IMG/VR virus record: IMGVR_UViG_3300034061_000175
Span: 1 to 30,740 of that record
DNA from: a virus
Strand: one strand, 5' to 3'
DNA: 30,740 nt
The notes beneath the pieces are model-generated. The model saw nothing but the letters and a program-made list of their open reading frames with translations, did not search any database and was not told where the DNA came from. The translations under genes were made by a program, and so were the position numbers. How positions within the stretch are numbered: position 1 is the stretch's first letter; each line of letters begins with the position of its first letter. Below, piece by piece: positions 8,698 through 30,740 of this stretch.

Positions 8698-8726
8698 CAA
8701 ATATAAGTATTATTTTTATATCGCAA
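8698..8726 (-). promoter_or_regulatory. Bacteroidota-type promoter for the erf operon
   Basis: Minus strand: TTG (8726-8724), 18 nt, TATATTTG (8705-8698) followed by C. This is a full match to TTG / TAnnTTTG. The erf ATG follows 23 nt downstream. It lies in the only sizeable gap between the nuclease-like gene and erf. Confidence 0.8.
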
Positions 8727-9879: not shown

Positions 9880-10881
9880 TTAAAAAGGTGTATCTTCTGC
9901 TAATCTACGTAACTTTTCAGAAGTGGTTAATATTTCGTTTGTTTCTATTCGTGTTTGTGTAGGCTGTTTTTTAATTTGTGGTTCGTGTTTTTGCTCATTT
10001 GCAAATTGCTTTACAAAAGTATAACCTTCTTTTTCTTCTAAATAGTAGTTTAAGGTTTCTTTATCAAACTTTATAAGCATTTTACCTATCTCTCCATTCG
10101 AACGGGGTTTAATTTTGTTGAAATAAATTTGTGCTTCATTGTATTCGGGGTTTTCCCTGTGTACTGTTATCATACATTTGCCCGAGTTAAACCATTCAGA
10201 ACCACCTTTTAAATCAAATGGAGTAGGTGGGTTTCTTTTGCCGTTTTCCTTCTCGGTTAATTTAGGGTGAATGATTGTGTGTAGATGCAAGTTGTTTTCT
10301 TCAGCTATAAAGTTGCGTAATGGTAAAACATATTCCAAATATTGAGCATATCCGCCATATTTTTCGTAGTCGTGGCTTAGGTCTTTCCAGCTATCTATTG
10401 AAGCAGTGTGTAATTCTTCGTCTTTTTTTAGCTTTATTGCCCATTCCCAAAATTCTTTAGGTGTTATTTTACCCTTTGTTTCTTTTCGAGTTATTATGTT
10501 GAAGTGACGTAAAACCCATTCCATAGCCATAGTTATTTCTAAATCAGTAATTACATTTCTTGCGTTAGGGTCAAAACTTTTACCCGTCTTTTTTTGTATT
10601 AAATCTGCAACTATTTCAGTTGTGTTACCTACGTCAGGAAAATAAACCAAGTGTTTCCATCCGTAAAATTTAGAAGTATTTACTAAACACTCCATTAAGA
10701 ATTGAGTTTTACCACTTTGCGGGTAACCTGTCCAATCAGTACAATTACCCAAACTCATTGAATAGTATTTATGTAGTTCGTCAAAACCTAAATACTTTCC
10801 TTTTACGTGATAGTTGTCGCGATGTTTGTATAAGGTTTCTACTACGTCACCTTGTTCTGCTATTTTAAATCCTTGTATCAT
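9880..10881 (-). CDS. DnaB-like replicative helicase ATPase, 333 aa
   Basis: RecA-fold ATPase with Walker A GYPQSGKT at about residues 52-59. Further along come HLHTIIHPKLTE and GGSEWFNSGKCMITVHR, which resemble the C-terminal domain of DnaB/Twinkle helicases (SF4). The N-terminal DnaB domain is missing. I set the start at ATG 10881, which overlaps the upstream stop as ATGA; the GTG at 10887 is less likely. The C-terminus ends AEDTPF, an SSB-like acidic-Pro-Phe tip. It lies next to the initiator, so it is probably the replication helicase. Confidence 0.75.
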   Translation of the reverse strand: MIQGFKIAEQGDVVETLYKHRDNYHVKGKYLGFDELHKYYSMSLGNCTDWTGYPQSGKTQFLMECLVNTSKFYGWKHLVYFPDVGNTTEIVADLIQKKTGKSFDPNARNVITDLEITMAMEWVLRHFNIITRKETKGKITPKEFWEWAIKLKKDEELHTASIDSWKDLSHDYEKYGGYAQYLEYVLPLRNFIAEENNLHLHTIIHPKLTEKENGKRNPPTPFDLKGGSEWFNSGKCMITVHRENPEYNEAQIYFNKIKPRSNGEIGKMLIKFDKETLNYYLEEKEGYTFVKQFANEQKHEPQIKKQPTQTRIETNEILTTSEKLRRLAEDTPF

Positions 10882-11528
10882 TGCCACGAAAATTTATTAG
10901 GTTGTTCACTAAAATCAGTAGGTTTAGGATTAAACTTGTCATCGTTTCGTTTCCATTGTGCTAATCTACGAGAATAACTCCAAGTTCTTTGTAATTCAAA
11001 TTTAAGTTTAGGGTTTTTATCCAAAGTTGCTTCAGTCCAATACGAATAAAAATCGTTAAGCATTTCTTTATTATAAATATCCAAATAGTCTTTTAGAGAA
11101 TCAGCAAATTTTAATTTGCGTTGTTCTATTGTTTCTTGTTTATTTGTTTCTTGTTTATTTATACTAACAGTGCTTTGACTGTGCTTTGTACTGTGCTTTT
11201 GCAGTGCTTTGTCTAGTGCTTTGGTAGATGCTTTGGTATTTTTTACAATAGCAATTATGTTAGAAGAGTATTGATTTTTACTAATTTCTACCATTTCTAC
11301 GAATCCAAATTCTACTAATTCATTTAATCCTGCCGAGTAAGTTCTCCAATTTTTTACTCCTATTGCTTCCATAACCATTTGAGAAGGAAGTCCGAATTTA
11401 TCTTTCCATCCTAAACGATTGCAGTGTTCAATAGCAAAAAAATAAATTGCATAATGAATAGGCTTTACTTTGTCAGGATTATCAAACGCCCAGTTGCAGA
11501 AATTTCTACTTAAATCATAACTATTCAT
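10878..11528 (-). CDS. Replication initiator-like protein carrying iterons, 216 aa
   Basis: The N-terminal half (CNWAFDNPDKVKPIHYAIYF, then GLPSQMVMEAIGVKNWRTYS and LNELVEFGFVEMVEI) has the winged-helix pattern of DnaD/O-type replication proteins. A low-complexity middle (KASTKALDKALQKHSTKHSQ) and a basic C-terminal part follow. The low-complexity stretch is encoded by DNA repeats whose spacing is not a multiple of three, so the repeats seem selected as DNA, as in the lambda O gene where the origin lies within the initiator. I prefer ATG 11528 (8-nt overlap with the upstream stop) to the TTG at 11537. The helicase gene follows immediately. Confidence 0.7.
   Translation of the reverse strand: MNSYDLSRNFCNWAFDNPDKVKPIHYAIYFFAIEHCNRLGWKDKFGLPSQMVMEAIGVKNWRTYSAGLNELVEFGFVEMVEISKNQYSSNIIAIVKNTKASTKALDKALQKHSTKHSQSTVSINKQETNKQETIEQRKLKFADSLKDYLDIYNKEMLNDFYSYWTEATLDKNPKLKFELQRTWSYSRRLAQWKRNDDKFNPKPTDFSEQPNKFSWQ
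11130..11234. other. Predicted replication origin: six iterons plus AT-rich tandem repeat
   Basis: Six copies of GTGCTTT(G), the last with A for G, start at 11170, 11181, 11193, 11204, 11216 and 11228 on the plus strand, so spacing is 11-12 bp, about one helical turn. Directly beside them is a perfect 15-bp AT-rich tandem repeat (GTTTCTTGTTTATTT at 11131-11145 and 11146-11160), suited to strand opening. All of this lies inside the initiator-like gene. The layout matches lambda-type origins, but no experiment supports it here. Confidence 0.65.
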
Positions 11529-11715
11529 TTGGCTCAAGATTATAATAAAACTTTAAAATAAAAGGAAGTAATTTTTCAATATCATTGTTTGAAATTGTAA
11601 CCGCCGCTCTATTTTCTCCTTCTACACATTCAAAACATAAATACTCACCAATGCTTACAAACATAACATCATTTAAAACATTTGCACATTGAAACTCTAA
11701 ATAATCTTTACGCAT
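11521..11715 (-). CDS. Hypothetical protein, 64 aa
   Basis: Begins MRKDYLEFQCANVLNDVMFV and includes GEYLCFECVEGENRAAVTIS, a small likely alpha/beta protein with three cysteines. It is the first gene after the structured RNA and its terminator, and its stop overlaps the initiator start by 8 nt. Its expression would depend on reading through that terminator or on a promoter I cannot see. No family is recognised. Confidence 0.6.
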   Translation of the reverse strand: MRKDYLEFQCANVLNDVMFVSIGEYLCFECVEGENRAAVTISNNDIEKLLPFILKFYYNLEPNE

Positions 11716-11735: not shown

Positions 11736-11788
11736 AAAAAAACCCCTTAAACTCCCGTGCATCCTACCTCACGTTCATTTAAAGGGTT
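11736..11788 (-). terminator. Terminator hairpin at the end of the structured RNA
   Basis: An 11-bp stem (AACCCTTTAAA with TTTAAGGGGTT, one U-G pair) followed by seven T residues on the minus strand. The 26-nt loop carries an inner hairpin CGTG/CACG. The next ATG is about 20 nt downstream, so it can act as an attenuator for the replication genes. Confidence 0.75.
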
Positions 11789-11831
11789 AAATAATTCCTT
11801 TCGAGTTTATAATGTAGGATGAACTCGTCTG
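11736..11831 (-). ncRNA. Structured RNA with two complementary hairpin loops, leader or sRNA
   Basis: Minus strand, in order. Hairpin A (11827-11802) has stem CGAGTT/AACTCG and a 14-nt loop beginning CATCCTAC (11821-11814). A short AT linker follows. Hairpin B is the terminator stem, with an inner hairpin whose 10-nt loop contains GTAGGATG (11767-11760). The two loops are perfectly complementary over 8 nt, as for a kissing or pseudoknot interaction. A TATATTTG box lies just upstream and a T-run ends it. No reading frame of note fits the region. It may be a small RNA or a regulated leader of the replication operon. Structure read by eye, not folded by program. Confidence 0.65.
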
Positions 11832-11839
11832 CAAATATA
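11832..11839 (-). promoter_or_regulatory. Promoter -7 box (TATATTTG) for the structured RNA
   Basis: TTATATTTGC on the minus strand, the same 10 bases as at the two strong promoters 8698 and 15066. No TTG is found 17-20 nt upstream (TTT at best), so it may be weak or need an activator. The transcript would start right before hairpin A. Confidence 0.55.
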
Positions 11840-11846
11840 ACGTTAT

Positions 11847-12281
11847 TTACTTATATAAAGTTGCCTCCTCAAATAAATATTCTTCGTTTAACAATTTGCG
11901 TTTTATATCCTGTAGTTCAGTAGTGTTTTTACATTCTAAAATATCGGTCATTAACTGCGTACCGTTGTATTTCTTTCCGTCTTTTTCTATCAAATCAACG
12001 TGAATTTTCTTTGGTTCGTAGAATATTTCACGATAATCTTTTACGTTATGTTCATACATTTCGTCTTTGTATCTATTATAGTCGTAGTGTTTCTTTATTC
12101 CGTTGATTATAGTAGCGTGTGTCTTATCGAATAATTGTCCTATTTCTACTAATGACATTCCGTCTTTGTGTAGCATCGCATATAAATAGCTTCGCTTGTC
12201 TAAAAACCTTCTATAACGCGCCTTAGTTACTAACCCATCACGCTGTATTATTTCTTTTATTTTATCAATCCTGTCTTGCAT
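11847..12281 (-). CDS. DnaA domain IV-like protein, 144 aa
   Basis: Residues about 25-70 (YRRFLDKRSYLYAMLHKDG, MSLVEIGQLFDKTHATIINGI) match the helix-turn-helix of DnaA domain IV, in which the signature reads (S)L.EIG..F....H.T....I. The ATPase domain is absent, so it would bind DNA but not act as a full initiator. The C-terminal half is charged and variable. Position just upstream of the structured RNA and replication genes suggests a role in origin recognition or its control; an alternative is a transcription regulator. Confidence 0.65.
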   Translation of the reverse strand: MQDRIDKIKEIIQRDGLVTKARYRRFLDKRSYLYAMLHKDGMSLVEIGQLFDKTHATIINGIKKHYDYNRYKDEMYEHNVKDYREIFYEPKKIHVDLIEKDGKKYNGTQLMTDILECKNTTELQDIKRKLLNEEYLFEEATLYK

Positions 12282-15065: not shown

Positions 15066-15094
15066 CAAATATAATACTTATTTACAAACTACAA
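15066..15094 (-). promoter_or_regulatory. Bacteroidota-type promoter for the early operon
   Basis: Minus strand: TTG (15094-15092), 18 nt, TATATTTG (15073-15066), then C. The same spacing and extended -7 box as the erf promoter. It is placed just after the late-operon terminator and before the first small gene. Confidence 0.8.
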
Positions 15095-18076: not shown

Positions 18077-19239
18077 TATTCTTTAATTTTAGTTTCTTCT
18101 TCGATTATATCTCCTACTATTTGATAGTTATTTAATTCAAATTCTACATTAAGACGAGAAATAAATAATAGTTCGTTAAATATCTCTTCTACTTCATTTC
18201 TTAACGGCATAATAGTGTTCTTTTCGAATATAGTGTAAGATTGCTTAATATCAGTACCCGAACCTAATTTACCGCTAACACGAATACCCATTAATATAGG
18301 GTCTATTGTGTGCGCTTGACATATCTTTTCGTCTATCCTTCCGTCGGTTTGTATAAATAATTGGTCGTTATTGTTTGTAGAAATAGTTTCTATTTTAGGA
18401 AGGTTCTCAGCACTATTAGCAAAAAACGCAACAGCTTTCCCGGCATTTGCTGCGCCCTTCATTCTATCTATAGTTTCTTTTATGATTTGCTTTTCTTCTT
18501 CGCTTTGTGGCTTCTTAGGAAACATCATAGCAAAAGACGGAAAAATAGAGTTTTGAATATTTGATTTATGTAGGTAACTCATTTCTCCATCTAAGAAAAT
18601 CCAATTTGTACAACTTGAATAAGTAGGTAAAGAATAATAATCTTGTCCTAAAGAATGATATTCATATACAAATAATTGTATCTTATCATTACAAGAAGGC
18701 GAATAAGGCTTTATAGGTTCTACGTCAATACGAGAAGCCCAATCTTCACAAATATAGTAACAACTCTTTTCTCTATTTACTCTTACTTTGTCAGGAAAAA
18801 TATTTTCTATTTTCTTTACTTCTCCCTTGTCACCAAAATACAACTTAAAGTAAACTCTATTATGTACAATTAATTGCTTTGTTATGGAAGGAACTAACTT
18901 ATTTAACTTTGCCTTCTTTTCGAAAGTATAAACATTTAACTTTTCTTCGTTTGTTAGCTTGTCAGTTTTCAAGACATAGCCTCCACCCGTAGCAGCATTG
19001 GTTTTAAAATCTACTATTGCTCCGTGAAGTGGACTTGTAAAGTAGAGTTGCGTCAATAGCTGTGGGTAAAGGTTATCGTGACCAAAAGGGATGTACCCCG
19101 AAATTTGATATCTTCCGTTTACATAAGGCAAAGCTAAGTTTGCACCGCCTACCTTACCAAAAGGTGTGCTAAATGATTGATAACCCTCTACTACTTCGGG
19201 TTTACTTTCTTCTTTTTTAAATATATTATACCACGCCAT
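18076..19239 (-). CDS. Portal protein, 387 aa
   Basis: N-terminal MAWYNIFKK, then YPQLLTQLYFTSPLHGAIVD (a helix typical of portals), a central beta region with the IENIFPDKVRVN strand, and a C-terminal part IRVSGKLGSGTDIKQSYTIF followed by NEVEEIFNEL, as in PBSX/HK97-type portals. It forms the dodecameric DNA gate in the capsid vertex. The length is at the shorter end of the usual 380-500. It lies downstream of the capsid genes in transcription order, the reverse of the common order. Confidence 0.85.
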   Translation of the reverse strand: MAWYNIFKKEESKPEVVEGYQSFSTPFGKVGGANLALPYVNGRYQISGYIPFGHDNLYPQLLTQLYFTSPLHGAIVDFKTNAATGGGYVLKTDKLTNEEKLNVYTFEKKAKLNKLVPSITKQLIVHNRVYFKLYFGDKGEVKKIENIFPDKVRVNREKSCYYICEDWASRIDVEPIKPYSPSCNDKIQLFVYEYHSLGQDYYSLPTYSSCTNWIFLDGEMSYLHKSNIQNSIFPSFAMMFPKKPQSEEEKQIIKETIDRMKGAANAGKAVAFFANSAENLPKIETISTNNNDQLFIQTDGRIDEKICQAHTIDPILMGIRVSGKLGSGTDIKQSYTIFEKNTIMPLRNEVEEIFNELLFISRLNVEFELNNYQIVGDIIEEETKIKE

Positions 19240-24916: not shown

Positions 24917-24947
24917 CAAATATACAACAATAAAATCATATTATCAA
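24917..24947 (-). promoter_or_regulatory. Bacteroidota-type promoter for the HNH gene
   Basis: Minus strand: TTG (24947-24945), 20 nt, TATATTTG (24924-24917). Spacing and -7 box equal those of the plus-strand promoter at 22198. The TTG overlaps the stop of the fibre-like gene upstream. ATG 24912 is 4 nt after the box, so the mRNA may be leaderless. Confidence 0.8.
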
Positions 24948-29145: not shown

Positions 29146-30740
29146 TTAAGGGTAGACACGTATTTCTAAAGTATTGTAATCTAATAAACCATCGGTTAAC
29201 GTATTCGTGAAATCAAGTGTCCGTATTTCGATAGTGTTTGCAGAAGTCCAAAAGATTCTTAAATAAGTGTCTACTTGACTATTTGAAACCATTAAGTAAA
29301 CTTTTCCCTGAGTAGGAAAAGCACCCGTTAACGTAGCTTCATATCTACCTATGGCAGCACGAGTGAAAACTAAATCGCCTAAATCATTTTCAAGTATGTT
29401 TAACGTAGGGTCGTTAGTTCCTGTTTGACTAATTAAAGCTATGTACTTTGAATAGATAGGTAAAGCTGTTGTTACGCTTTGCCCGTTGATAGTTTCTATT
29501 TGTAGGTTTTTTGTTATTATTCCGTCTTCCGATAAGGCTTGTCCGTTACCCTCTATTACGGCTTTTACGTTTTGGTTTATTACGTTACCTCTTCCTTTTA
29601 CATCTGCGTTTCCTAAGATTACGTTACTTTGTTGTGTTCGTGTTCTTACAACGCTTTCACTACTTACCGCAACTATCGTGTCTTGAAATGGCGTTCCGTT
29701 ACCGGTCTGAAATGGCACTAACTCTATTTCACTATCAACGCTTATTAATTCGACTTTTGTTAACGATGTACTATTTGCGTCGTAGTCAATAACCTTGTTA
29801 ATATTCCACCAAGAATTATCTATTCTTATTTTGTCGTTTAGCCTTAATGATTGAATATCCAACTCATTCAAATCAAAGTAAGCTGTAAGCATTTTACCGA
29901 CGTTGATTTGATTTATCGTTCTTCTCCAGTATAAGTTATATAGATTGTTATTTGTTAGCGTAGAAGGCTCGTAATAGTAATAGTCACACGTTCCGAAGTT
30001 GATGTCGTAAGTCGGTAATAATGGGTTATCGAAATGCCCGACAGCCGGATAAGTAGTTATGCCTGTAGTGCCTATATTTAAAGAAGGCGTGTTCGGAAAC
30101 TCGATATCAAATATATCGTAAGGTAAACAATTAAACACCCCTCCATCTAATAAAACACGAATGTTAATCTTCGGTGCTGCTCCCGCAATATTCGGGACAT
30201 ACGCATCGAAAATAGTTCTTACTATGGGTGTAGGACTAAACACCAACTCTTTAACGTCGGTATCTCTTACATACTCATTATCGAAGGTGTATTCTATTTG
30301 TCCGTATATCTCGTTTGTAATATCCGTAAATATCGTGTTAGGACTATCCTTATCAGCTTTGTAAGTAAGTCGTAATTTCTTAGAAGTAACTTCAGGTAAA
30401 AATTGTAGGTTTTGTTCTCGGTCTTTTGCTAACTTATTAGTCCAATCTTTGTTAGCTCCATTATCATAGTAATTATCTCTATGTTCTAAGATTAGATTAT
30501 TAGGTTGGTCTTCGTCTATTTCTACGTATAAGTTGTACATCTGAAAGATAGACTTAACGAAATCGCTTTGTTTAATCTTTGATGGGACGAATGAGTTAAC
30601 AGCTACAACCGCATTATAAGACACTACATTTGCACTCGGTAGAATCTCAAGTTTTAAAGTCGTAAGGTCAACTTGTGGATTTACTTGAACGTTTGTGCCT
30701 CCACCCGGTGCGCCTCCACTTTGCCACCTTTTAACACCAG
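29146..30740 (-). CDS. Large tail structural protein, C-terminal part (continues from position 1)
   Basis: Continuation of the gene that begins at 1348; the part 30570-30740 is the duplicated overlap. The frame ends at 29146 (IRVYP, stop). A GTG at 30624 would start a 492-residue protein but only because the sequence was opened here; upstream codons (...EILPSANV) are open in the repeated segment and join the 1-1348 frame. The last third has a VVRTRTQQSNVILGNADVKG segment, like intramolecular-chaperone or fibre-attachment regions. It is probably a tail-tip protein. Confidence 0.85.
   Translation of the reverse strand, partial: GVKRWQSGGAPGGGTNVQVNPQVDLTTLKLEILPSANVVSYNAVVAVNSFVPSKIKQSDFVKSIFQMYNLYVEIDEDQPNNLILEHRDNYYDNGANKDWTNKLAKDREQNLQFLPEVTSKKLRLTYKADKDSPNTIFTDITNEIYGQIEYTFDNEYVRDTDVKELVFSPTPIVRTIFDAYVPNIAGAAPKINIRVLLDGGVFNCLPYDIFDIEFPNTPSLNIGTTGITTYPAVGHFDNPLLPTYDINFGTCDYYYYEPSTLTNNNLYNLYWRRTINQINVGKMLTAYFDLNELDIQSLRLNDKIRIDNSWWNINKVIDYDANSTSLTKVELISVDSEIELVPFQTGNGTPFQDTIVAVSSESVVRTRTQQSNVILGNADVKGRGNVINQNVKAVIEGNGQALSEDGIITKNLQIETINGQSVTTALPIYSKYIALISQTGTNDPTLNILENDLGDLVFTRAAIGRYEATLTGAFPTQGKVYLMVSNSQVDTYLRIFWTSANTIEIRTLDFTNTLTDGLLDYNTLEIRVYP
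30570..30740. repeat. Terminal redundancy, right copy
   Basis: Second copy of 1-171, with G at 30697 for A at 128. See the left copy. Confidence 0.95.

Follow-up and report, generated by a model that had tools for sequence, protein, structure and literature searches.

Leader and genomic context

What kind of RNA precedes the replication genes of a tailed phage, and what might its two mutually complementary hairpin loops do there? The question arises from one locus in the window, the whole 30,740-nt (30.7-kb) stretch of DNA analysed here, an IMG/VR record. The genes of this phage include those for terminase, portal, tape measure, an Erf-type annealing protein, an exonuclease, NinG and an amidase, and in named collections its relatives are phages of Flavobacterium and Polaribacter. 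On the minus strand, the element at 11839-11736 comprises a TATATTTG box, a 5' hairpin (hairpin A) and a terminator hairpin (hairpin B). The element and its neighbouring genes are laid out as follows:

11847-12281, minus strand: gene just upstream, 144 aa, DnaA-C-like helix-turn-helix (Pfam PF08299, below its cut-off)
11832-11839, minus strand: TATATTTG, -7 box of a Flavobacterium sigma-A promoter (class I alignment: constant apart from single-letter variants)
11822-11827, minus strand: hairpin A, 5' arm CGAGTT (sequence; the stem, helix 1, covaries)
11814-11821, minus strand: kissing strand A, CATCCTAC, within loop A (complements 11760-11767; covariation)
11808-11813, minus strand: loop A tail ATTATA, kept as A..ATA (alignment)
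11802-11807, minus strand: hairpin A, 3' arm AACTCG (sequence; stem covariation)
11788-11801, minus strand: single-stranded linker AAAGGAATTATTTA, 14 nt, kept as AAAGRARTTATT (alignment)
11777-11787, minus strand: terminator outer stem, 5' arm of an 11-bp stem (folding, sequence, covariation; helix 3)
11774-11776, minus strand: GAA side of the conserved GAA/GGA internal loop (alignment)
11770-11773, minus strand: inner stem, 5' arm CGTG (covariation; helix 4)
11760-11767, minus strand: kissing strand B, GTAGGATG, in the terminator apical loop (unique 8-mer; covariation)
11756-11759, minus strand: inner stem, 3' arm CACG (covariation; helix 4)
11753-11755, minus strand: GGA side of the GAA/GGA internal loop (alignment)
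11742-11752, minus strand: terminator outer stem, 3' arm (folding, covariation; helix 3)
11736-11742, minus strand: intrinsic-terminator T-run, seven T (sequence; conserved in the family)
11521-11715, minus strand: first gene behind the leader, a 64-aa ORF, function unassigned (ATG at 11715, 20 nt after the T-run, a spacing conserved in the family)
10878-11537, minus strand: second gene, replication-initiator-like protein, 219 aa (phrog_19415; weak phrog_18020 'replication initiation O-like')
9880-10887, minus strand: third gene, helicase-like protein, 335 aa (phrog_5482, related to DnaB-type primase/helicases)

The loop of hairpin A has 14 nt (CATCCTACATTATA) and the apical loop of the terminator 10 nt (AGGTAGGATG); between them, CATCCTAC (11821-11814) perfectly complements GTAGGATG (11767-11760), and neither 8-mer has a second copy elsewhere in the 30.7-kb window. 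The transcript is predicted to start at about 11827, the first base of hairpin A, because the Flavobacterium -7 box, TAnnTTTG, sits at -12 to -5, as located in F. psychrophilum (PMC9723704). The nested (non-kissing) part of the RNA folds as described (z = -2.2), and a hairpin directly followed by a U-run is the hallmark of an intrinsic terminator, termination itself being predicted from the sequence. Further exact TATATTTG boxes occur on the minus (coding) strand at 8698-8705, 15066-15073, 18749-18756, 24917-24924 and 30108-30115; two of these, at 8698 and 15066, are situated within or close to intergenic gaps and might serve as additional phage promoters.

An earlier note on this DNA had described two hairpins with a perfect 8-nt loop complement, and these are present on the minus strand where it placed them. 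Its view that such a match is unlikely by chance agrees with a simple count, which gives about 3e-4 for loops of 14 and 10 nt (21 placements / 65536), and the box (11839-11832) and T-run (11742-11736) do flank the hairpins. The note also placed the first gene of the replication operon about 20 nt further on; the distance is right, but that gene is the 64-aa ORF and the replication genes come second and third.

Conservation and covariation of the kissing helix

Relatives' loci were collected by way of the helicase and the upstream 144-aa protein, and by way of a primary-sequence pattern that is silent on loop pairing. Class I elements have the order TATATTTG, about 4 nt, hairpin A of 5-6 bp, a linker with AAAGRARTTATT, the terminator hairpin and the T-run. 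Loop A holds eight kissing bases (consensus S-N-Y-Y-Y-N-A-C) followed by A..ATA, and the terminator has an outer stem of 10-12 bp, the GAA/GGA internal loop, a 4-bp inner stem and a loop made of A-R plus the eight kissing bases. The leader RNA is about 90 nt long, and many viruses of Flavobacterium-type bacteria start their DNA-replication genes with it; 32 different kissing sequences were found among 104 distinct elements.

In the loci found through the 144-aa protein, both loops had changed together: the pair is CATCCTAC/GTAGGATG in the window, GGTCTCAC/GTGAGACC in locus L082 and CATCTCAC/GTGAGATG in L086. The upstream protein itself is 99% identical in L082-L085 despite their differing leaders, and, judged from these sequences, a recombination boundary lies between the 144-aa gene and the leader in the relatives. 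Among the matches listed for the pattern were 93 distinct sequences, of which 84 are real elements, every one with 7-8 nt of loop complementarity; the rest are L150 and eight chance matches elsewhere. L150 (2995-3062, minus strand) retains an intact hairpin A but lacks loop B together with the terminator hairpin's 5' half, and this leader is possibly a natural always-on form. The same pattern search in bacterial and archaeal genomes gave no real element among the matches listed (at least 119 stretches).

Kissing pairs were counted on the 69 distinct hits of R1, a kiss-free covariance model, run over the pattern loci. The kissing helix was paired in 99.1% of 536 cells (eight columns); R1 had been trained on complementarity-selected elements, so that this value may lean slightly, and only slightly because loop positions vary and carry little weight in the model. 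Both sides had changed in 170 cells, spread over six of the eight columns, counts that represent non-independent events because many of these phages are related. Slid by 1-3 columns, the helix was paired in only 26-40%, and its covariation score was 0.70 against 0.21 when shuffled and at most 0.11 when slid. The two invariant columns are the A-U and C-G pairs adjoining the loop A tail. Stem A, the inner stem and the outer stem all covary too; G-U pairs are frequent in the outer stem alone and absent from the kissing helix of the 69 distinct elements. L055-L057 have one G-U within the kiss, a plausible evolutionary intermediate, and the 102-nt elements of L141 and L094 differ in nothing but two compensated kissing pairs. 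The earlier note had asked whether related phages that keep the flanks also compensate in both loops; they do. Sequence comparison bears out, as features of the family, the promoter box, the two hairpins with their kissing helix, the terminator and the constant distance to the start codon. Although a change in a kissing pair takes two mutations, such pairs diverge no more slowly than the remainder of the RNA; a test for diversifying selection on the kiss gave a suggestive signal at intermediate distances only.

Variant leaders in named phages

Class II elements occupy the same position and are smaller; their loops have 6-7 nt, all or nearly all of them paired, and the internal loop is of the AGUA/GAA type, by inspection a bulged-G motif. 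They were found in L010, L011, L018, L026, L085 and L166, with a similar element in L062; a class II pattern scan returned unrelated GC-rich matches and one real, already-known element. Named phages carry versions of their own. FL-1 (KY421186.2, 18920-19026) has the kiss CGTCTCAC/GTGAGACG, FCL-2 (KM873719.2, 37475-37587) CATCCAC/GTGGATG, and Danklef_1 GGTGGAA/TTCCACC; FCOV-S1 has a 7-bp kiss, and FCOV-F1 and V186 have GTAGAGAG/CTCTCTAC, where loop A holds the purine strand and the T-tract is poor. Across class II and the F. columnare, FL-1 and Polaribacter phage versions, the contact is thus kept with different sequences and sizes. The F. columnare phages FCOV-F1, FCOV-S1 and V186 (L353, L354, L355) show a mirrored layout, in which the purine-rich kissing strand lies in a long hairpin A and the pyrimidine-rich strand in hairpin B, before the imperfect T-tract CTTAACTTTTT.

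Four loci (L109, L133, L127 and L166) contain one leader of class I and one of class II, separated by 1.8-2.4 kb and differing in loop code. The two leaders stand in series, as though every early module were equipped with an addressed terminator. With a generic structure scan, candidates turned up in 165 phage-side loci, compared with three low-complexity matches in 1.74 Mb of control DNA.

Genes downstream of the leader

An ATG-started frame follows the T-run within 60 nt in 121 of the 122 class I elements with enough sequence, and at 16-21 nt in 98 of them; it is this narrow spacing that counts, because random places have an ATG frame within 62 nt in 39% of cases. One connected cluster, containing the replication-initiator-like family, accounts for 102 downstream proteins. 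Elsewhere the downstream genes encode primase-helicase proteins, a primosomal-like protein, a helicase, DNA methyltransferases, a PAPS-reductase-like protein and a TET-associated glycosyltransferase, and the small ORFs immediately after the leader come from many families. At L167:2106-2957 and L109:2073-3287 the leader is followed by a TET-associated glycosyltransferase (DNA base modification) and a PAPS-reductase-like protein.

The fixed place ahead of unrelated genes argues for a leader acting in cis, and the gap of 16-21 nt leaves no room for a second promoter, so that read-through would be needed. Promoter box, terminator and constant start-codon distance together strongly favour a cis leader or attenuator. 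Sequestration of the start codon is unlikely: the region from -20 to +20 around translation starts is kept unstructured in F. johnsoniae (PMC6847099), and the end of the hairpin, some 27 nt ahead of the ATG, falls outside this region, which argues that read-through mRNAs are translated. The kissing-loop attenuator proposed in the earlier note is therefore upheld by the relatives as regards the kiss and partly supported as regards attenuation, for which the anatomy speaks. Its proposed target, the replication genes, is correct for most phages and too narrow for some, in which a methyltransferase, PAPS-reductase-like or glycosyltransferase operon follows.

Comparison with known RNAs

The closest parallel in design is the guanidine-IV (GGAM-1/mepA) riboswitch, which has two linker-joined hairpins with kissing loops, the second being an intrinsic terminator, before non-homologous genes (PMC7736828, PMC11611296). 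There the kiss is thought to stretch the linker and so block the outer terminator pairs (PMC7736828), and, during transcription, the kiss becomes weaker as the second stem grows longer (PMC11611296). The phage leader shares the kissing hairpins and the terminator in second place, but not the pocket nucleotides: the loop bases of guanidine-IV are nearly invariant and bind guanidine, whereas six of the eight kissing pairs vary in the phage leader and no ligand pocket is conserved. The genes differ as well, guanidine-IV standing upstream of guanidine exporters and related genes and the phage leader upstream of replication, methyltransferase and other phage genes.

Premature termination in a replication-operon leader, governed by RNA loop pairing, is a feature shared with the P4 CI RNA and the pT181 repC attenuator. 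In those systems a separate or processed antisense RNA acts in trans, whereas the phage leader has both complementary loops in one RNA. Between 10173 and 13079 the plus strand has no antisense promoter of the TAnnTTTG type, the only type searched for, and this speaks against a pT181-type antisense attenuator. ColE1 RNA I/RNA II with Rop is similar in its loops of 6-8 nt that are largely or wholly paired, in a shape that is kept while types differ in sequence, and in controlling replication; that contact is intermolecular, belongs to a plasmid, and neither partner is a terminator. The HK022 put RNA is likewise a two-hairpin phage leader affecting termination in early operons. It acts on RNA polymerase at later terminators, whereas in the phage leader the terminator belongs to the element.

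Rfam 15 gave no match in the window at the gathering score and, at E 10 for the region, only a chance snoRNA match on the other strand and outside the element. No tRNA lies in the window. A host or prophage RNA was rejected, since the three weak matches of the model in 299 genomes (a Flavobacterium-centred genus sample) proved to be ordinary hairpins on inspection. So was a leader peptide: some copies do have ATGAANNNNARG plus a stop, but this is not conserved and comes as a side effect of the GAA/GGA motif.

The literature searched, with few subscription papers and no preprints, held no prior description of the leader. The principle of a kissing-loop-gated terminator is already known; a sequence-variable version without a known ligand, heading phage replication modules, appears to be new. 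Gene control in Bacteroidota phages is little known, and the leader is a common, strongly conserved and Rfam-absent candidate RNA switch that heads replication modules both of environmental phages and of isolates infecting Flavobacterium columnare. With about 30 natural loop codes and no known ligand, the family offers a test bed for competition between kiss and terminator during transcription, and early-gene control in FCL-2 and FL-1 becomes testable with reporter point mutants.

Proposed mechanism and alternative explanations

The best explanation of the element, with a chance slightly better than even, is a cis-acting 5' leader in which a kissing-loop-gated intrinsic terminator heads the phage DNA-replication operon. 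We infer the regulation, its direction and its signal as follows. The transcript would begin at hairpin A; once the small inner part of hairpin B is made, its loop would pair with loop A over 8 bp; and the holding or breaking of this kiss as the outer terminator stem zips would set the share of polymerases that stop at the T-run rather than read into the replication genes. Such competition is plausible, since the predicted energies of the kiss (about -11 kcal/mol) and of the terminator hairpin (about -18 kcal/mol, about -2 of it from the inner part) are of similar order. By analogy with the guanidine-IV proposal, the kiss would strain the 14-nt linker, oppose completion of the terminator and favour read-through. 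This direction, rather than termination, is the most likely one, although the lean towards it is modest because both stems could leave the kissing helix at the same end, so that kiss and terminator could coexist. Candidate signals are the terminated leader itself, a protein reading the kissing shape, or the conditions of transcription; the leader family has no conserved ligand pocket or other obvious signal. Besides the geometry that would let a kiss and a complete terminator coexist, points against a gated terminator are the FCOV-type versions with a poor T-tract and the elements that also lie behind same-strand upstream genes, where some transcripts may enter from upstream.

The variability of the kiss could also mean that the leader recognises its own kind in trans. 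The terminated leader of about 90 nt would accumulate, pair through its loops with nascent leaders of the same type and raise their termination, a dose sensor or immunity RNA like the P4 CI RNA, with the variable loop pair serving as the specificity code. The 32 kissing sequences among 104 distinct elements, the different codes of two leaders in one phage and the fast divergence of kissing pairs despite its two-mutation cost are all in keeping with this. However, intramolecular loop pairing should compete with pairing in trans, the kissing 8-mers have no second partner in the window, and ordinary compensatory drift could yield equal diversity, and we regard trans recognition as unlikely. Equally unlikely is the self/non-self code it implies, whereby terminated leaders act only on leaders of the same code, so that a module senses its own dose and excludes superinfecting phages of that code; if true, this would be an immunity and copy-control system made of RNA only, with key and lock on one RNA. 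Preservation of shape with variable sequence would be expected, too, if a phage or host protein recognised the kissing helix irrespective of sequence, as Rop does with the ColE1 RNAs, and served as an antiterminator or stabiliser. The conserved unpaired linker, the loop A tail and the GAA/GGA or AGUA/GAA internal loops could be read in this way; however, there is no candidate protein, the small ORFs right behind the leader belonging to many families, and the idea is given a similarly small chance.

Two further readings are slightly less probable still. A compact, self-contained unit with a promoter box and a T-run might be a stand-alone small RNA that acts elsewhere, other promoters serving the downstream genes; against this stand the fixed spacing of 16-21 nt to the start codons of unrelated genes, which leaves no room for another promoter, and the kissing bases, which have no exact second match in the window. 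Alternatively, the kiss might support termination, forming a firm and compact border at which read-through from the upstream module is stopped, with little regulation involved. The outer stem is conserved, as is the kiss, and the two could coexist; the element also heads successive modules within the same phage, but a plain strong hairpin would suffice for this purpose and the cost of a variable 8-bp kiss would go unexplained. A gated terminator acting in cis is thus preferred here.

Other leaders in the same group of phages

Another TATATTTG leader occurs in the Riemerella phages vB_RanS_CRP5 and PJA1 (L356:1529-1720 and L357:1543-1730). Within its terminator hairpin is a segment that complements about 15 nt of the leader's 5' end, GTTAATCCAAGTGC. 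The start-codon region, ATGTTAATCCAAG, repeats this 5' sequence, so that the same segment could pair with either. The genes behind the leader in L356 include an antirepressor. A different, short leader follows TA.ATTTG at L015:2802-2883 and L019:1056-1149, upstream in the same phages, and consists of a hairpin of the GCATT...AATGC type and a plain TTCG-loop terminator. In phage FL-1, the early operon behind the leader contains a tRNA-like sequence with a long insert (L088:3000-3172; gtgtggcggaactggtagacgc ... ggttcgaacccctccactcca).
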